The notes under the pieces: generated by a model | What the model was told of the DNA's origin: nothing | Databases searched by the model: none | Seen by the model: the letters and a program-made list of their open reading frames with translations, nothing else | Shown here: one piece after another, positions 27,498 through 46,849 of the stretch | Position numbering within the stretch: position 1 is the stretch's first letter | Layout: the number at the start of each line of letters is the position of its first letter | Made by a program: the position numbers and the translations under genes | DNA from: Candidatus Planktophila lacus | Lineage (GTDB): Bacteria; Pseudomonadota; Gammaproteobacteria; Steroidobacterales; Steroidobacteraceae | DNA length: 64,000 nucleotides | Direction: 5' to 3' | Assembly: GCA_943331345.2 (NCBI GenBank) | Contig: CALQLF020000001.1 | Location: forward strand, 1 to 64,000

Positions 27498-28499
27498 TTG
27501 GCCACCCCGCCCATCCATCCCACGACACTCGCGCCACTGACGCACGAGCAGTTGTTGCGTGCCTACCGGCAGATGAAGACGATTCGCGAGTTCGAGGAAC
27601 GGCTCCACGTCGAAATCCAGACCGGCGAGATTCCCGGCTTCACGCACCTCTACTCCGGCCAAGAGGCCGTGGCAGTAGGCGTGTGCGAACTGTTGAGCGA
27701 TGCGGACTACATCGTCAGCACGCACCGCGGCCATGGCCACTGCATCGCCAAGGGCTGCGACGTGGTGGGCATGATGAAGGAGATCTACGGCCGTCACGAC
27801 GGCCTTTGCAAGGGCAAGGGCGGCTCCATGCACATCGCGGACTTCGACAAGGGCATGCTCGGCGCCAACGGCATCGTGGGCGGTGGCCAGCCGCTCGCCG
27901 TGGGCGCTGCCATCGCCTGCCGCAACCGCGGCAATGGCACGGTCTCCATCGCTTTCGGTGGTGACGGCAGCAGCAACCAGGGCACCGTCTTCGAGGCCAT
28001 GAACCTCGCCGTGGTACTCAAGGTTCCCGCGCTGTTCGTGTGGGAAAACAACGGCTACGGCGAACACACCGGTGCCGATTACTCCGTCGGCAGCCGTGAC
28101 ATCGCCGGCCGTTGCCGCGGCTTTGGCATGCCGGCCGAAGTCTGCGACGGCAGCGACTTCTTCGCGGTCTTCGAAACCATGGGCCGCATGGTTGCCCGCG
28201 CCCGCGCTGGCGAAGGCCCGGCCGCTATCGAAGCCCGCATCACGCGCTTCTTCGGCCACTTTGAAGGAGACCCGCAGTTGTACCGCGCCAAGGACGAGAC
28301 CAAGCGCCTGCGCGAAAGCATGGACTGCCTGAAGATTTTCCGGGCCCGCGTCACCGCCGAGGGCTGGCTGGAAGCTGGCGAACTCGACGCCATCGACAGC
28401 GAAGTGCTCGCCCTCATCGACCGTGCGGTCGCCGAAGCCAGGGCCTCGTCGCCGCCGGCCGAAGCCGACTTGTACGCCGACGTCTACGCCGAATACTGA
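27498..28499 (+). CDS. TPP-dependent 2-oxoacid dehydrogenase E1, alpha subunit
   Basis: Alpha chain of a pyruvate/acetoin/branched-chain-type dehydrogenase. The 333-residue product has YSGQEAVAVGV, HRGHGHCIAKG and the thiamine diphosphate motif GDGSSNQG...EAMNLA, with RYRA-like C-terminal elements. Translation starts at TTG 27498, supported by AGAGGAGA 6-8 nt upstream. It forms an operon with E1-beta and E2 and follows a Rieske oxygenase. Length and order most resemble acetoin dehydrogenase (AcoABC), but the substrate could be another 2-oxoacid made by the pathway. Confidence 0.92.
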   Translation: MATPPIHPTTLAPLTHEQLLRAYRQMKTIREFEERLHVEIQTGEIPGFTHLYSGQEAVAVGVCELLSDADYIVSTHRGHGHCIAKGCDVVGMMKEIYGRHDGLCKGKGGSMHIADFDKGMLGANGIVGGGQPLAVGAAIACRNRGNGTVSIAFGGDGSSNQGTVFEAMNLAVVLKVPALFVWENNGYGEHTGADYSVGSRDIAGRCRGFGMPAEVCDGSDFFAVFETMGRMVARARAGEGPAAIEARITRFFGHFEGDPQLYRAKDETKRLRESMDCLKIFRARVTAEGWLEAGELDAIDSEVLALIDRAVAEARASSPPAEADLYADVYAEY

Positions 28500-28508
28500 G
28501 GACTTCCC

Positions 28509-29519
28509 ATGCCAGTCAAATCTATGCGCGACGCCATCAACGACGCGCTGCATCTCGAAATGGCCCGGGACCCGTCCATCATCGTGCTCGGTGAGGACGT
28601 GTCGGGTGGTGCCGGCGGTACCAGCGGCGAGCGCGAAGCCTCCGGCGGCATCTTCGGTGTCACGAAGGGCTTGCTGCCCCGCTTCGGCGACCACCGGGTC
28701 ATCGATACGCCCATCACCGAGAGCGCCATCATCGGCGCAGCCGGCGGTGCAGCGCTCGCGGGCCTCCGCCCCGTCGCGGAACTGATGTTCGCCGACTTCG
28801 TCGGCGTCAGCCTCGACCAGATCTTCAATCAGCTGGCGAAGTTCCGTTACATGTTCGGCGGCAAGACCAACTGCCCAGCGGTCATCCGTTTAGCCATGGG
28901 TGCCGGCATGAACATGGGTGCGCAGCATTCGCAGACCATGTATTCCATGCTCACCAGCGTGCCGGGCTTGAAGGTTGTCATCCCTTCAAACGCTTACGAC
29001 GCGAAGGGCCTGATGATTACCGCACTGCGCGGCAACGACCCGGTGTTGTTCTTCGAGCACAAGGCCCTCTACCCGCGCAAGGGCGAAGTACCCGATGGCG
29101 CCTACACCATCCCCTTCGGCGAGGCCGCGCTGGTCCGCGAAGGCGAGCATGTCACGGTAGTGGCACTTGCCCGCATGGTGCCCTTCGCTGAGAAGGCCAT
29201 CGATGCGCTAGCGAAGGATGGCATCACCTGCGACCTCATCGATCCGCGCACCACTTCCCCGATGGACGAAGACACCATCCTCGAGAGTGTCGAGAACACC
29301 GGGCGCTTGGTGGTGGTGGACGAGAGCAACCCGCGCTGCAGCGTCGCCAGCGATATCGCCGGCATGGTTGCCGCACGCGGATTCCACAGCCTGAAGGCGC
29401 CGGTACAACTGGTCACCGCCCCACACACACCCGTGCCTTTCGCGCGTGAACTGGAACGTGCCTACGTGCCCAGCCCCACCCGTATCGAGGCCGCCATCCG
29501 TGCCGTGATGAAGGATTGA
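28509..29519 (+). CDS. TPP-dependent 2-oxoacid dehydrogenase E1, beta subunit
   Basis: Beta chain of 336 residues with the transketolase pyrimidine-binding part (VLGEDVSGGAGGTSGEREAS, PITESAIIGAAGGAALAGLRPVAE) and the C-terminal transketolase domain (IDPRTTSPMDEDTI, VVVDESNPRCSVASDIA). It pairs with the preceding alpha subunit to form the alpha2-beta2 E1. Gap to the alpha gene is 9 nt and to E2 12 nt. Confidence 0.93.
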   Translation: MPVKSMRDAINDALHLEMARDPSIIVLGEDVSGGAGGTSGEREASGGIFGVTKGLLPRFGDHRVIDTPITESAIIGAAGGAALAGLRPVAELMFADFVGVSLDQIFNQLAKFRYMFGGKTNCPAVIRLAMGAGMNMGAQHSQTMYSMLTSVPGLKVVIPSNAYDAKGLMITALRGNDPVLFFEHKALYPRKGEVPDGAYTIPFGEAALVREGEHVTVVALARMVPFAEKAIDALAKDGITCDLIDPRTTSPMDEDTILESVENTGRLVVVDESNPRCSVASDIAGMVAARGFHSLKAPVQLVTAPHTPVPFARELERAYVPSPTRIEAAIRAVMKD

Positions 29520-29531
29520 GGTAAAAAATCA

Positions 29532-30836
29532 ATGAGCAAAATCAACGCCATAACGATGCCTAAATGGGGCATCGAAATGCAGGAAGGGACCATCAACGGC
29601 TGGCATGCCACGGCGGGCCAAGTGCTCGGTAAAACCGAACCCCTGCTGGATGTGGAAACGGAAAAAATCGTCAACACGGTCGAGACGCCAGTGGCCGGAA
29701 CGCTCCGCCGCATCATCGGCCAAGTGGGTGACACCCTCGCGGTGGGTGCGCTCATCGGGTTGATGGCGGATGCCGCAGTTAGCGAGGAAGAACTGGACCA
29801 GTTCATCGCCAACTTCAAAGGCGCAGACACCTCGTTCGAACCAGCGGGCGACGCTGCTCCTGCCGCAACGGCTACCGCCGCTGTACCCGAGGAGAGCAGC
29901 GGCGAGGCCCGCGTCAGCCCCATCGCACGCCGCGTGGCGGAACGTCTCGGCGTGGACATCGCCAAGGTCGTCGGTACGGGCCGCAATGGTCGCGTGTCGA
30001 AGGAAGACGTAGAGGCTTATCACGCCGCCCAAGCGGGCGCTGCCGCCGGGGAAGTCGCGAGCAAGCTCGCTCCCACAATGGATGGTGCTGCTGCAGCAGC
30101 CAGTTCACTGCCCAGCAGCCAACCCACTGTGGGAGGCAGCTTGCTGCCGACAGAGGCTGGCACCAACCCAGCCACTCGCGAAAAAATGACGTCGATGCGT
30201 CTGACGATTGCGCGGCGTCTAAGCGAGAGCAAGCAGACCATCCCGCATTACCGCCTCGCGGCCGATGTGGATTTCACAGGTCTCTTCGCGCGTCGTGCCG
30301 AGCTCGTGGCTGCTGGCCAGAAAGTGTCCGTGAACGACCTGCTGTTGCGCGGTGTGGCGCTCACACTCGGCAAGCACCCGCAACTGAACGCGCACTTCGC
30401 CGGCGATGAAGTGGTGAAGTTCGCTCGCGCAGATATTTGCGTAGCTGTCTCCACCGACGGCGGTCTGTCGACTCCCGTGCTGCGCGATGTAGCGAACAAG
30501 ACTGCGGCGGAAGTGGCCAGCGGTGTTGCCGATCTCGCTCAGCGCGCCCGCAACGGCAAGCTGGTACGCGAAGAAATCACCGGCGGCACATTCACCGTGT
30601 CCAACCTCGGCATGTTTGGCATCGACCAGTTCGACGCCATCATCAACCCGCCCCAGGTAGCCATCCTGGCCGTGGGCGCTGCCCGCGAACGTATCACCGC
30701 CCGCAACGGCGCGGCCGTGGTCGCCAAGGTGGCTACCCTCACGCTGTCCTGCGACCACCGCGTGGTGGATGGGGCCGTGGGCGCTGCCTTCCTGGCGGAC
30801 CTGCGCGGCTGCCTGGAGTCCCCGGCGTCCCTCTAG
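29532..30836 (+). CDS. Dihydrolipoamide acyltransferase (E2) with REP-encoded linker
   Basis: Core acyltransferase of the 2-oxoacid dehydrogenase complex, 434 residues. Domains in order: lipoyl domain (residues 3-78; lipoyl-lysine is Lys 45 in VETEKIV), E1/E3-binding domain (VSPIARRVAERLGVDIAKVV, residues 128-162), and the catalytic domain (about 215-434) with LSCDHRVVDGAVG near the end. The linker at residues 174-207 is encoded by two REP elements in opposite orientation and reads EVASKLAPT...TVGGSLLPT. No E3 (lipoamide dehydrogenase) gene follows; a hairpin terminator does. E3 is presumably shared with another complex. Confidence 0.93.
   Translation: MSKINAITMPKWGIEMQEGTINGWHATAGQVLGKTEPLLDVETEKIVNTVETPVAGTLRRIIGQVGDTLAVGALIGLMADAAVSEEELDQFIANFKGADTSFEPAGDAAPAATATAAVPEESSGEARVSPIARRVAERLGVDIAKVVGTGRNGRVSKEDVEAYHAAQAGAAAGEVASKLAPTMDGAAAAASSLPSSQPTVGGSLLPTEAGTNPATREKMTSMRLTIARRLSESKQTIPHYRLAADVDFTGLFARRAELVAAGQKVSVNDLLLRGVALTLGKHPQLNAHFAGDEVVKFARADICVAVSTDGGLSTPVLRDVANKTAAEVASGVADLAQRARNGKLVREEITGGTFTVSNLGMFGIDQFDAIINPPQVAILAVGAARERITARNGAAVVAKVATLTLSCDHRVVDGAVGAAFLADLRGCLESPASL
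30054..30151. repeat. REP pair inside the E2 gene (locus 3)
   Basis: A forward unit (30054-30077, core GCGAGCAAGCTCGCTCCC) and a reverse unit (30128-30151, core GGGAGGCAGCTTGCTGCC) lie inside the E2 coding sequence. Both are read in frame without a stop and encode the peptides VASKLAPT and VGGSLLPT in the linker between the E3-binding and catalytic domains. Confidence 0.9.
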
Positions 30837-45178: not shown

Positions 45179-46849
45179 CTAACGTGAGGCCGGGAAATAC
45201 GCCCGGCCACCGCGCAGCACCAGCTCGCGCTGCACCACGGCGGGAATATCCGTGGTGTGGTGCACCGCCAGCACCAGCGTGGTGCCGGCAGCAGCACGAC
45301 GCTCCATCTCTTCCAGCATTCGTGTACGCGCAACGCGGTCCAGCCCGGTGAAGGGCTCGTCCAGCAGCAAGAGTTCCGGGTTGCGGATAAGCGCGCGCGC
45401 CAGCAGCGCCAGCCGCAATTGCCCATACGACACTTCCCGCGGGTAGCGTCCCGCCAAAGGCGCCAAGCCAAACCAATCGAGCGCTTCCAGAGCGCGGCGC
45501 TTTTCGCCCGCTGAAGGCTTCCAGTCCAGCCCAAGGCTGCCGCGCCAACCGCCAATCACCAAATCCAGCAAGCTGCCCGCGCCCATCGCGTCGTCTACCG
45601 CCCGTGTCTGCAGCTCCGGCGAAACGTAGCCGCAGCGCCGCTTCCACAGTTCAATAGGCGTGCCTTTCGGAAAACGCGCGCGGCGTACCTCGCCGCCCAG
45701 CGCCGGCCAACGCGAGCCATGCAGCAATTGCAGCAGCGTCGACTTGCCACTGCCCGTGGCGCCCTTCACCACCCAGTGCTCGCCGCGGCGGACAGTCCAA
45801 TCCAACCCGCGCACCACCGGCCGCCACTCGCGGTAAATATCCACGTTGCGCAGTTCAACGAGTGCGGCAGAAGGCTTGCTTGTAGGAGCGAGCTTGCTCG
45901 CGACTCTTAATGTAGGAGCGAGCTTGCCTGGGGAATCAACCTTGCTTGTGGAATCAACCTTGCTTGTGGGAGCGAGCTTGCTCGCGACTCTTACTGTAGG
46001 AGCGAGCTTGCTCGCGACTGTCGGCAGCAAGCTGCCTCCCACAGGCTCCACAATCACTCGCCCTCGCTCCACGCGCGCACGGCGCGTGAAGCCAGCCGGC
46101 ATCTCTTCATCGCGGTGCGTAGTAATGACCACCGTGCAACGCCGCTTCAACAACACGCGCAGCGCCGCCTGCACCGCGCGACGGTGTGCGCTATCGAGAC
46201 CGTTGAAGGGCTCGTCGAGCAATAGCAGCGCCGGCTTCGCCACCCAAGCACGTGCCAGCAAGACGCGGCGACGCTCGCCGTAGGAAAGCTCCAAAAAACC
46301 GCGCCGCTCAAGCTTTTTCAAACCGAACAAGGCCACGGCTTGCGTCACTTCCGCGGACTTGGCGCGCGTCAATTTCCGCAGCGGAATATCCGTGCGATCG
46401 AAACCGGTACCAATGACTTCGCGCAGGCGAAGGTTCCAGTCACGCCGGGCATATCGGTCCTGATGTTCACCAGAGACGTGCAATACGCGCGGCAGCACAT
46501 CGACGGCATCAACCTCATTTCCACGGACGTCAATCCAACTGAGACCATCGCCAGCGCCACGACGCTTGCCTACCGGCGTCGGCCAGCGTTCGCCCGCCAT
46601 TAGCTTGCAGAGCTGCGTCTTGCCGGCGCCATTGCCACCTTCCAGCACCCAGCGTTCGCCGGGCCGAATCTCCCAGCGCACTCCGCGCAAAATGGCGCTG
46701 TCGCCCAGTGTCAGATGAACGCGATCGAAGCGGACCCCCAACGCACCGAGGGAGGCAGCTTGCTGCCGAATGTCGCGAGCAAGCTCGCTCCCACAAGCAT
46801 CAACTTCTCTGTGGGAGGCAGCTTGCTGCCGACTGCCGGAATCAATCAC
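45179..46849 (-). CDS. Twin-ATPase ABC protein (ModF/PhrA-like) with REP-encoded linkers
   Basis: Cytoplasmic protein of 556 residues with two ABC ATPase domains. Domain 1: Walker A GGNGAGKT (residues 71-78), signature LSYGERRR, Walker B LLLLDEPFNGLD. Domain 2: Walker A GATGSGKST, signature VSYGQLRL, LLLLDEPFTGLD. No membrane segments. This layout matches ModF, whose role is unclear but tied to molybdate genes, and a molybdenum cofactor operon lies 1 kb away. Residues about 6-34 and 269-323 are REP-derived. The start is GTG 46849, overlapping the MBL gene stop (GTGA). Confidence 0.85.
   Translation of the reverse strand: MIDSGSRQQAASHREVDACGSELARDIRQQAASLGALGVRFDRVHLTLGDSAILRGVRWEIRPGERWVLEGGNGAGKTQLCKLMAGERWPTPVGKRRGAGDGLSWIDVRGNEVDAVDVLPRVLHVSGEHQDRYARRDWNLRLREVIGTGFDRTDIPLRKLTRAKSAEVTQAVALFGLKKLERRGFLELSYGERRRVLLARAWVAKPALLLLDEPFNGLDSAHRRAVQAALRVLLKRRCTVVITTHRDEEMPAGFTRRARVERGRVIVEPVGGSLLPTVASKLAPTVRVASKLAPTSKVDSTSKVDSPGKLAPTLRVASKLAPTSKPSAALVELRNVDIYREWRPVVRGLDWTVRRGEHWVVKGATGSGKSTLLQLLHGSRWPALGGEVRRARFPKGTPIELWKRRCGYVSPELQTRAVDDAMGAGSLLDLVIGGWRGSLGLDWKPSAGEKRRALEALDWFGLAPLAGRYPREVSYGQLRLALLARALIRNPELLLLDEPFTGLDRVARTRMLEEMERRAAAGTTLVLAVHHTTDIPAVVQRELVLRGGRAYFPASR
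45881..46043. repeat. REP array inside the twin-ATPase gene (locus 5)
   Basis: Five units in the inter-domain linker: reverse at 45881-45904, a truncated one at 45911-45930, reverse at 45965-45988 and 45995-46018, then forward at 46020-46043. On the coding strand all are read in frame and encode repeats such as VASKLAPT and GGSLLPT, about 55 residues in total. Confidence 0.9.
46748..46833. repeat. REP array inside the twin-ATPase gene N-terminus (locus 6)
   Basis: A partial reverse unit (46748-46770), a forward unit (46772-46795) and a reverse unit (46810-46833) lie just after the GTG start of the twin-ATPase gene. Read in frame they encode SRQQAAS, GSELARD and RQQAAS. They use a different frame of the REP from locus 5, so the peptides differ. 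Confidence 0.85.

Follow-up and report, generated by a model that had tools for sequence, protein, structure and literature searches.

The window analysed here, a stretch of 64,000 nucleotides, carries a gene for a 434-residue E2 acyltransferase with three Pfam domains (Biotin_lipoyl, residues 6-76; E3_binding, 127-161; 2-oxoacid_dh, 213-433). Two E1-like genes lie upstream of it (27498-28499 and 28509-29519), and the gene content points to an operon for a dehydrogenase of the 2-oxoacid/acetoin type; none of the NCBIfam models searched gave the E2 protein a name above its cut-off. Between residues 161 and 213 the protein contains an insert laid out as VASKLAPT, 17 residues and VGGSLLPT, in which the two octapeptides are encoded by REP units of opposite orientation. 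A sequence-only reading of this DNA had described two opposite REP-like units in the E2 gene, and their frame, both peptides and their position between the E3-binding and catalytic domains were all borne out. AlphaFold2 gave residues 171-210 a pLDDT of 29-33, and the REP-encoded stretch is predicted to be a disordered linker between these two domains. The features of the locus are as follows.

29532-30836, plus strand: E2 acyltransferase gene, 434 aa (open reading frame list; Pfam domains)
30054-30077, plus strand: left REP unit, GTCGCGAGCAAGCTCGCTCCCACA, exact family consensus, reading VASKLAPT (residues 175-182)
30078-30127, plus strand: spacer between the REP units, 50 nt, reading MDGAAAAASSLPSSQPT; the spacers of other listed pairs are 11-99 nt
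30128-30151, minus strand: right REP unit, GTCGGCAGCAAGCTGCCTCCCACA, exact second stem variant, VGGSLLPT on the coding strand (residues 200-207)
30090-30161, plus strand: 72 nt (24 codons, 187-210) missing in both sister species, ends uncertain by about 4 nt, covering the right REP unit and the greater part of the spacer

The REP family and its apparent transposase

REP palindromes are normally intergenic and are copied by a RAYT transposase. Within the E2 gene the arms of the inverted repeat (30054-30081 and 30124-30151, 28 nt each) are 82% complementary, and the 98-nt pair has a folding energy of -57.7 kcal/mol (z = -6.2). The left-unit pattern was found at 307 places in the genome when up to three mismatches were allowed, while the reversed pattern used as a control was found at none; counting stem variants there are about 429 units. 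Within the window itself a related pattern gave 23 matches against 0.08 expected. A chance palindrome at 30054-30151 is ruled out by the complementarity of the arms, the copy number in the genome and the excess of matches in the window.

The units vary by compensatory change, with the stems CG/CG, GG/CC and GC/GC accounting for most of 225 units. Read as the reverse complement, each begins with GTGG or GTAG plus GA, followed by the stem and a GAC tail, and one foot of the imperfect hairpin carries a GTAG-like tetranucleotide. In a 2013 catalogue (BMC Genomics, PMC3733652), GTAG-1 and GTAG-2 REPs are listed with GW extra bases and a 3-bp tail, and the REPs of this genome match them in both. Units mostly have neighbours in clusters: plus/minus pairs no more than 120 nt apart numbered 51 in 1.53 Mb, where isolated units numbered only 17. 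The element at 30054-30151 can accordingly be classed by its structure as an inverted REP pair (REPIN) of GTAG-1-like type.

The genome containing the window (G000) consists of 184 contigs, and all genomes compared appear to be metagenome assemblies. Three congeners (G001, G002 and G003) contain 49, 53 and 25 copies against 429 here, a roughly tenfold expansion, and among other genomes of the family only 1 of 146 gave a match. Within its bacterial family, the REP family is thus essentially confined to one gammaproteobacterial genus. A gene for a RAYT of 174 aa was identified on another contig of the window genome (C19:119-643, minus strand, also L201:119-643; NF047646, 114 bits, cut-off 80). 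REPs of the window family flank it on both sides, and it is apparently their cognate enzyme. A RAYT was not found in any of the three congeners; completeness is 99-100% for two of them.

Relics of the insertion in sister species

In the two nearest sister species, G001 and G002 (95% and 94% protein identity), 24 codons of the E2 segment are missing, while the flanks of the insert remain orthologous. At the codons where the window has VASKLAPT, both sisters have VASKPAPA, encoded by GTTGCCAGCAAACCCGCTCCGGCA, which is identical to the REP unit at 18 of 24 bases in the same frame; four of the six differences are synonymous. Of 456,571 in-frame windows from coding DNA of the species' own genome, and of 32,000 linker-like windows, not one reached an identity of 18/24. 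The E2 linkers of the third congener, G003 (77%), and of ten outgroups are unrelated and contain nothing REP-like, their best REP identity being 11-15 of 24 at any position and in either orientation. Because the sister sequence matches the REP at 18 of 24 bases and the match is absent further out, VASKPAPA is an eroded REP relic and not ancestral host linker. The sisters thus carry a worn REP, and the insertion is older than the split between them and the window lineage.

These comparisons bear on the earlier proposal that REP elements had inserted into an older linker. The alignment of E2 orthologues showed that the segment does vary, with the 24 codons absent in two sisters and no REP in the third congener or the outgroups, and an in-frame REP within a pre-existing linker was upheld; the left unit, though, is not peculiar to this genome. 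That proposal had counted the same residues written in divergent codons in all related E2 proteins as a sign of ancestry that would refute a REP insertion. The sisters' VASKPAPA shows this in part, and G003 and the outgroups are without a REP. A clean, recent insertion into an unrelated linker was rejected in view of the REP relic in the sisters. Separately, the metagenome bins L037 and L049, titled Janthinobacterium lividum and Klebsiella pneumoniae, have E2 genes closest to this Steroidobacteraceae-like group, and their titles look mislabelled.

REP units inside other genes

In-gene REPs were surveyed in 2.145 of the 3.166 Mb of the window genome (68%), using gene calls from a simple custom hexamer-score predictor and gene names based on Pfam domain content and our own reading of the sequences (e.g. 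GltX, IleS, ModF-like). The surveyed DNA held 300 units in 105 loci. Six open reading frames with N-terminal REPs (C19:10474, C20:33814, C27:14086, C29:3676, C55:2818 and C62:5972) were set aside as probable start mis-calls, as were units fewer than 40 codons from a start. With these doubtful start sites excluded, 52 of the 300 units, in 21 loci, lie within 20 genes and keep the frame. The other 84 loci are not internal to genes and the E2 copy is itself inside an open reading frame; an extragenic location is not a strict criterion for a REP, since the published catalogue accepts intragenic copies (PMC3733652).

The genes hit include enzymes such as IleS, GltX, glucose-6-phosphate isomerase (PGI), TilS, RibD and MurI, together with a pyruvate-dehydrogenase E2, the adjacent lipoyl-bearing E3, a branched-chain-type E2, an exosortase and two ABC-type ATPases. 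Recurrent peptides are VASKLAPT, VGGSLLPT, VGASLLAT, CGSELARD and SREQARSH. It had been suggested that the E2 peptides might recur in other proteins, and so they do: VASKLAPT in the ModF-like protein, BCKDH E2, IleS and RibD, and VGGSLLPT in the ModF-like protein, BCKDH E2, PGI and PPTase. Three of the loci are listed here.

45881-46043, minus strand: four consensus units and one degenerate unit, in frame, that form the linker joining both ATPase domains of a ModF-like ABC protein (encoded at 45182-46849, minus strand, inside the window)
G000, C19:19856-21370, minus strand: GltX gene, with a GSELAR[D/E] peptide and a REPIN beside it
L213:1766-3502, minus strand: exosortase gene with five REPs, four of them in tandem at a 36-nt period

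The exosortase REPs are translated as a repetitive 12-residue linker, GSGASSLLQGAD, that joins the exosortase domain to a DUF3485 domain. At L125:4654-7739 the pyruvate-dehydrogenase E2 and the lipoyl-bearing E3 genes are adjacent, with REPs in the linkers of both.

Comparison with the congeners revealed several states of such insertions. REPs at orthologous codons are shared with G001 in IleS, the ModF-like gene (where the first three units of the cluster have counterparts) and BCKDH E2. In the linker of pyruvate-dehydrogenase E2, G000, G001 and G002 each have a REP set of their own, indicating REP turnover. In GltX, the four genomes of the genus all encode the peptide GSELAR[D/E], and the window genome has a fresh REPIN there. 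The corresponding stretch matches the REP at 18, 17 and 19 of 24 bases in the three congeners, and no such peptide aligned in GltX of ten family outgroups; it has the look of a REP relic that the genus as a whole has retained. At one codon of this site the three congeners agree on a non-consensus GGC, where the window genome has the consensus GGG. In PGI, a multi-REP insert abuts a REP-like stretch that is present in the sisters. The alignment of PGI with its best solved homologue runs on either side of the REP insert, and the GltX insert lies between its two matched stretches.

REP loci occur at 57.5 per 100 kb of non-coding DNA and 1.05 per 100 kb of coding DNA, making them about 55-fold rarer in genes. 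Insertions into genes are therefore mostly purged, with survivors where they are tolerated. Among 18 insertions, 10 fell in gaps between Pfam domains against 3.9 expected (P about 0.001), a count that left out GltX and one gene without Pfam hits and in which some domain limits were set by hand, toward 'inside' when in doubt. Five of the six reading frames through a REP unit contain almost no stops. The remaining Trp/Cys frame is used by none of the 52 in-gene units; selective avoidance of that frame was not upheld, as 132 of the 300 REPs have a stop there anyway.

Origin and fate of the E2 insertion

We consider it very probable that a REPIN entered the E2 linker in frame, before the split from the two nearest sisters. 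The RAYT would have made the insertion, and the insert could have persisted with five frames nearly stop-free and a linker that tolerates 24-33 extra residues. The sisters, in which no RAYT was detected, would then have let the REP erode, and in the window lineage the complete pair would have been retained or renewed. The presence of RAYT here and its absence from the congeners fits active renewal in the one and erosion in the others, and does not prove it.

For an old event to have left a perfect copy in the window, decay must have been slow, or the copy must have been renewed by conversion or through a second insertion onto the relic. In one version of the last step, a single eroded REP was already present in the common ancestor, and recombination or a targeted REPIN insertion then added the complete pair at this relic in the window lineage; we give this close to an even chance, though slightly less. 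From the measured distances, about 1.4 changes per 24 nt would be expected on the path from sisters to window by our arithmetic, against six observed, none of which separates the two sisters. The GGC codon of the GltX congeners and the position of the PGI insert beside a REP-like stretch point the same way. On the other hand, linker positions change fast in general and codons 165-174 differ too, the states in common are preferred codons that may have arisen in parallel, and the literature regards most REP singlets as what is left of decayed pairs (PMC8049555), which favours loss in the sisters.

Selection for the insert, either because it gives the swinging arm more length or flexibility or through an mRNA hairpin that pauses ribosomes at the domain boundary, seems unlikely. 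Three E2 proteins and one lipoyl-bearing E3 have REPs in inter-domain linkers, the hairpin of the REP pair is strong and most relic differences are synonymous; yet the sisters manage without the extra 24 residues, many unrelated enzymes are also hit, REPs are depleted from genes genome-wide and the sites are too few for a selection test. It is very unlikely that VASKPAPA is host linker resembling a REP by chance, with a recent, clean REPIN replacing about 26 nt in the window. Ala/Pro/Lys-rich linkers are typical of E2 proteins, and the window copy is pristine in a genome with an expanded REP population. Against this stand the resemblance at orthologous codons, at a level that no control window reached, the lower identities of the outgroup linkers and the independent repetition of the pattern in GltX, where again no control reached 18. 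That REPs produced a chimeric join in the metagenome assembly is hardly credible: repeats are common break points and the genome is in many contigs, but the frame is kept in 20 genes, the IleS, ModF-like and BCKDH E2 units lie at identical codons in independently assembled sisters, and the flanks of the E2 insert are still orthologous.

Returning to an in-frame insertion that predates the sister split, we regard it as most likely near-neutral rather than selected as a linker; since REPs are depleted in coding DNA, it may not be harmless. The sequence-only reading had suggested that such palindromes are tolerated or even used as linker cassettes. Tolerance is the best reading of our data, since the strong depletion of REPs from genes agrees better with it than with use as a cassette. 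A broader scenario, possible but doubtful, is that REP units are a recurrent source of new protein linkers in this genus, inserting in frame at domain boundaries, eroding to ordinary-looking peptides (VASKPAPA, GSELAR[D/E]) and serving as landing sites for further REPINs, with some relics coming under selection.

The classic parallel for the in-frame insertion of palindromes is provided by the Rickettsia palindromic elements (RPEs). Here too, palindromic repeats lie in frame in unrelated protein genes (20 in this genome); they differ in sequence and host, being of GTAG-1 type in a gammaproteobacterial genus and not in Rickettsiales, and in the presence of a RAYT. PMC3733652 lists no association with a transposase for the CGTC class, to which some RPEs belong. 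The E2 REPIN behaves as an RPE does but is not one.

Intragenic GTAG and CGTC REPs, as units or dimers in open reading frames encoding about 20-30 (up to 82) residues, have been catalogued in repair, tRNA-synthetase and other genes, with flexible linkers or loops proposed as tolerant sites (PMC3733652). The present case is alike in having units and dimers in open reading frames, with tRNA-synthetase genes among the hosts. It differs in genome and REP population and in that the genes hit are mostly metabolic and translational enzymes; here, sister relics, shared units and turnover are documented and the preference for linkers is counted. The architecture also resembles the REPIN/RAYT system of Pseudomonas, with an inverted doublet, a REP-flanked RAYT and hundreds of copies (PLoS Genet 2011, PMC3116915). 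In P. fluorescens SBW25, 14 of 1,067 copies of the commonest 16-mers overlap genes (PMC3116915), compared with 52 of 300 units inside genes here.

The E2 locus offers a clear case, datable in relative terms, in which mobile non-coding palindromes have become protein sequence in an uncultured bacterium of freshwater type. With the sister species at hand, a fresh pair, a shared unit, an eroded relic and an empty site can be set side by side for each gene, and the fate of the REP elements can be related to whether a RAYT is present. That a mobile palindrome can become protein is already published for in-gene REPs and RPEs; what is unusual here is the density of insertions, the hits in four lipoyl-bearing dehydrogenase subunits and the graded series in the sisters.
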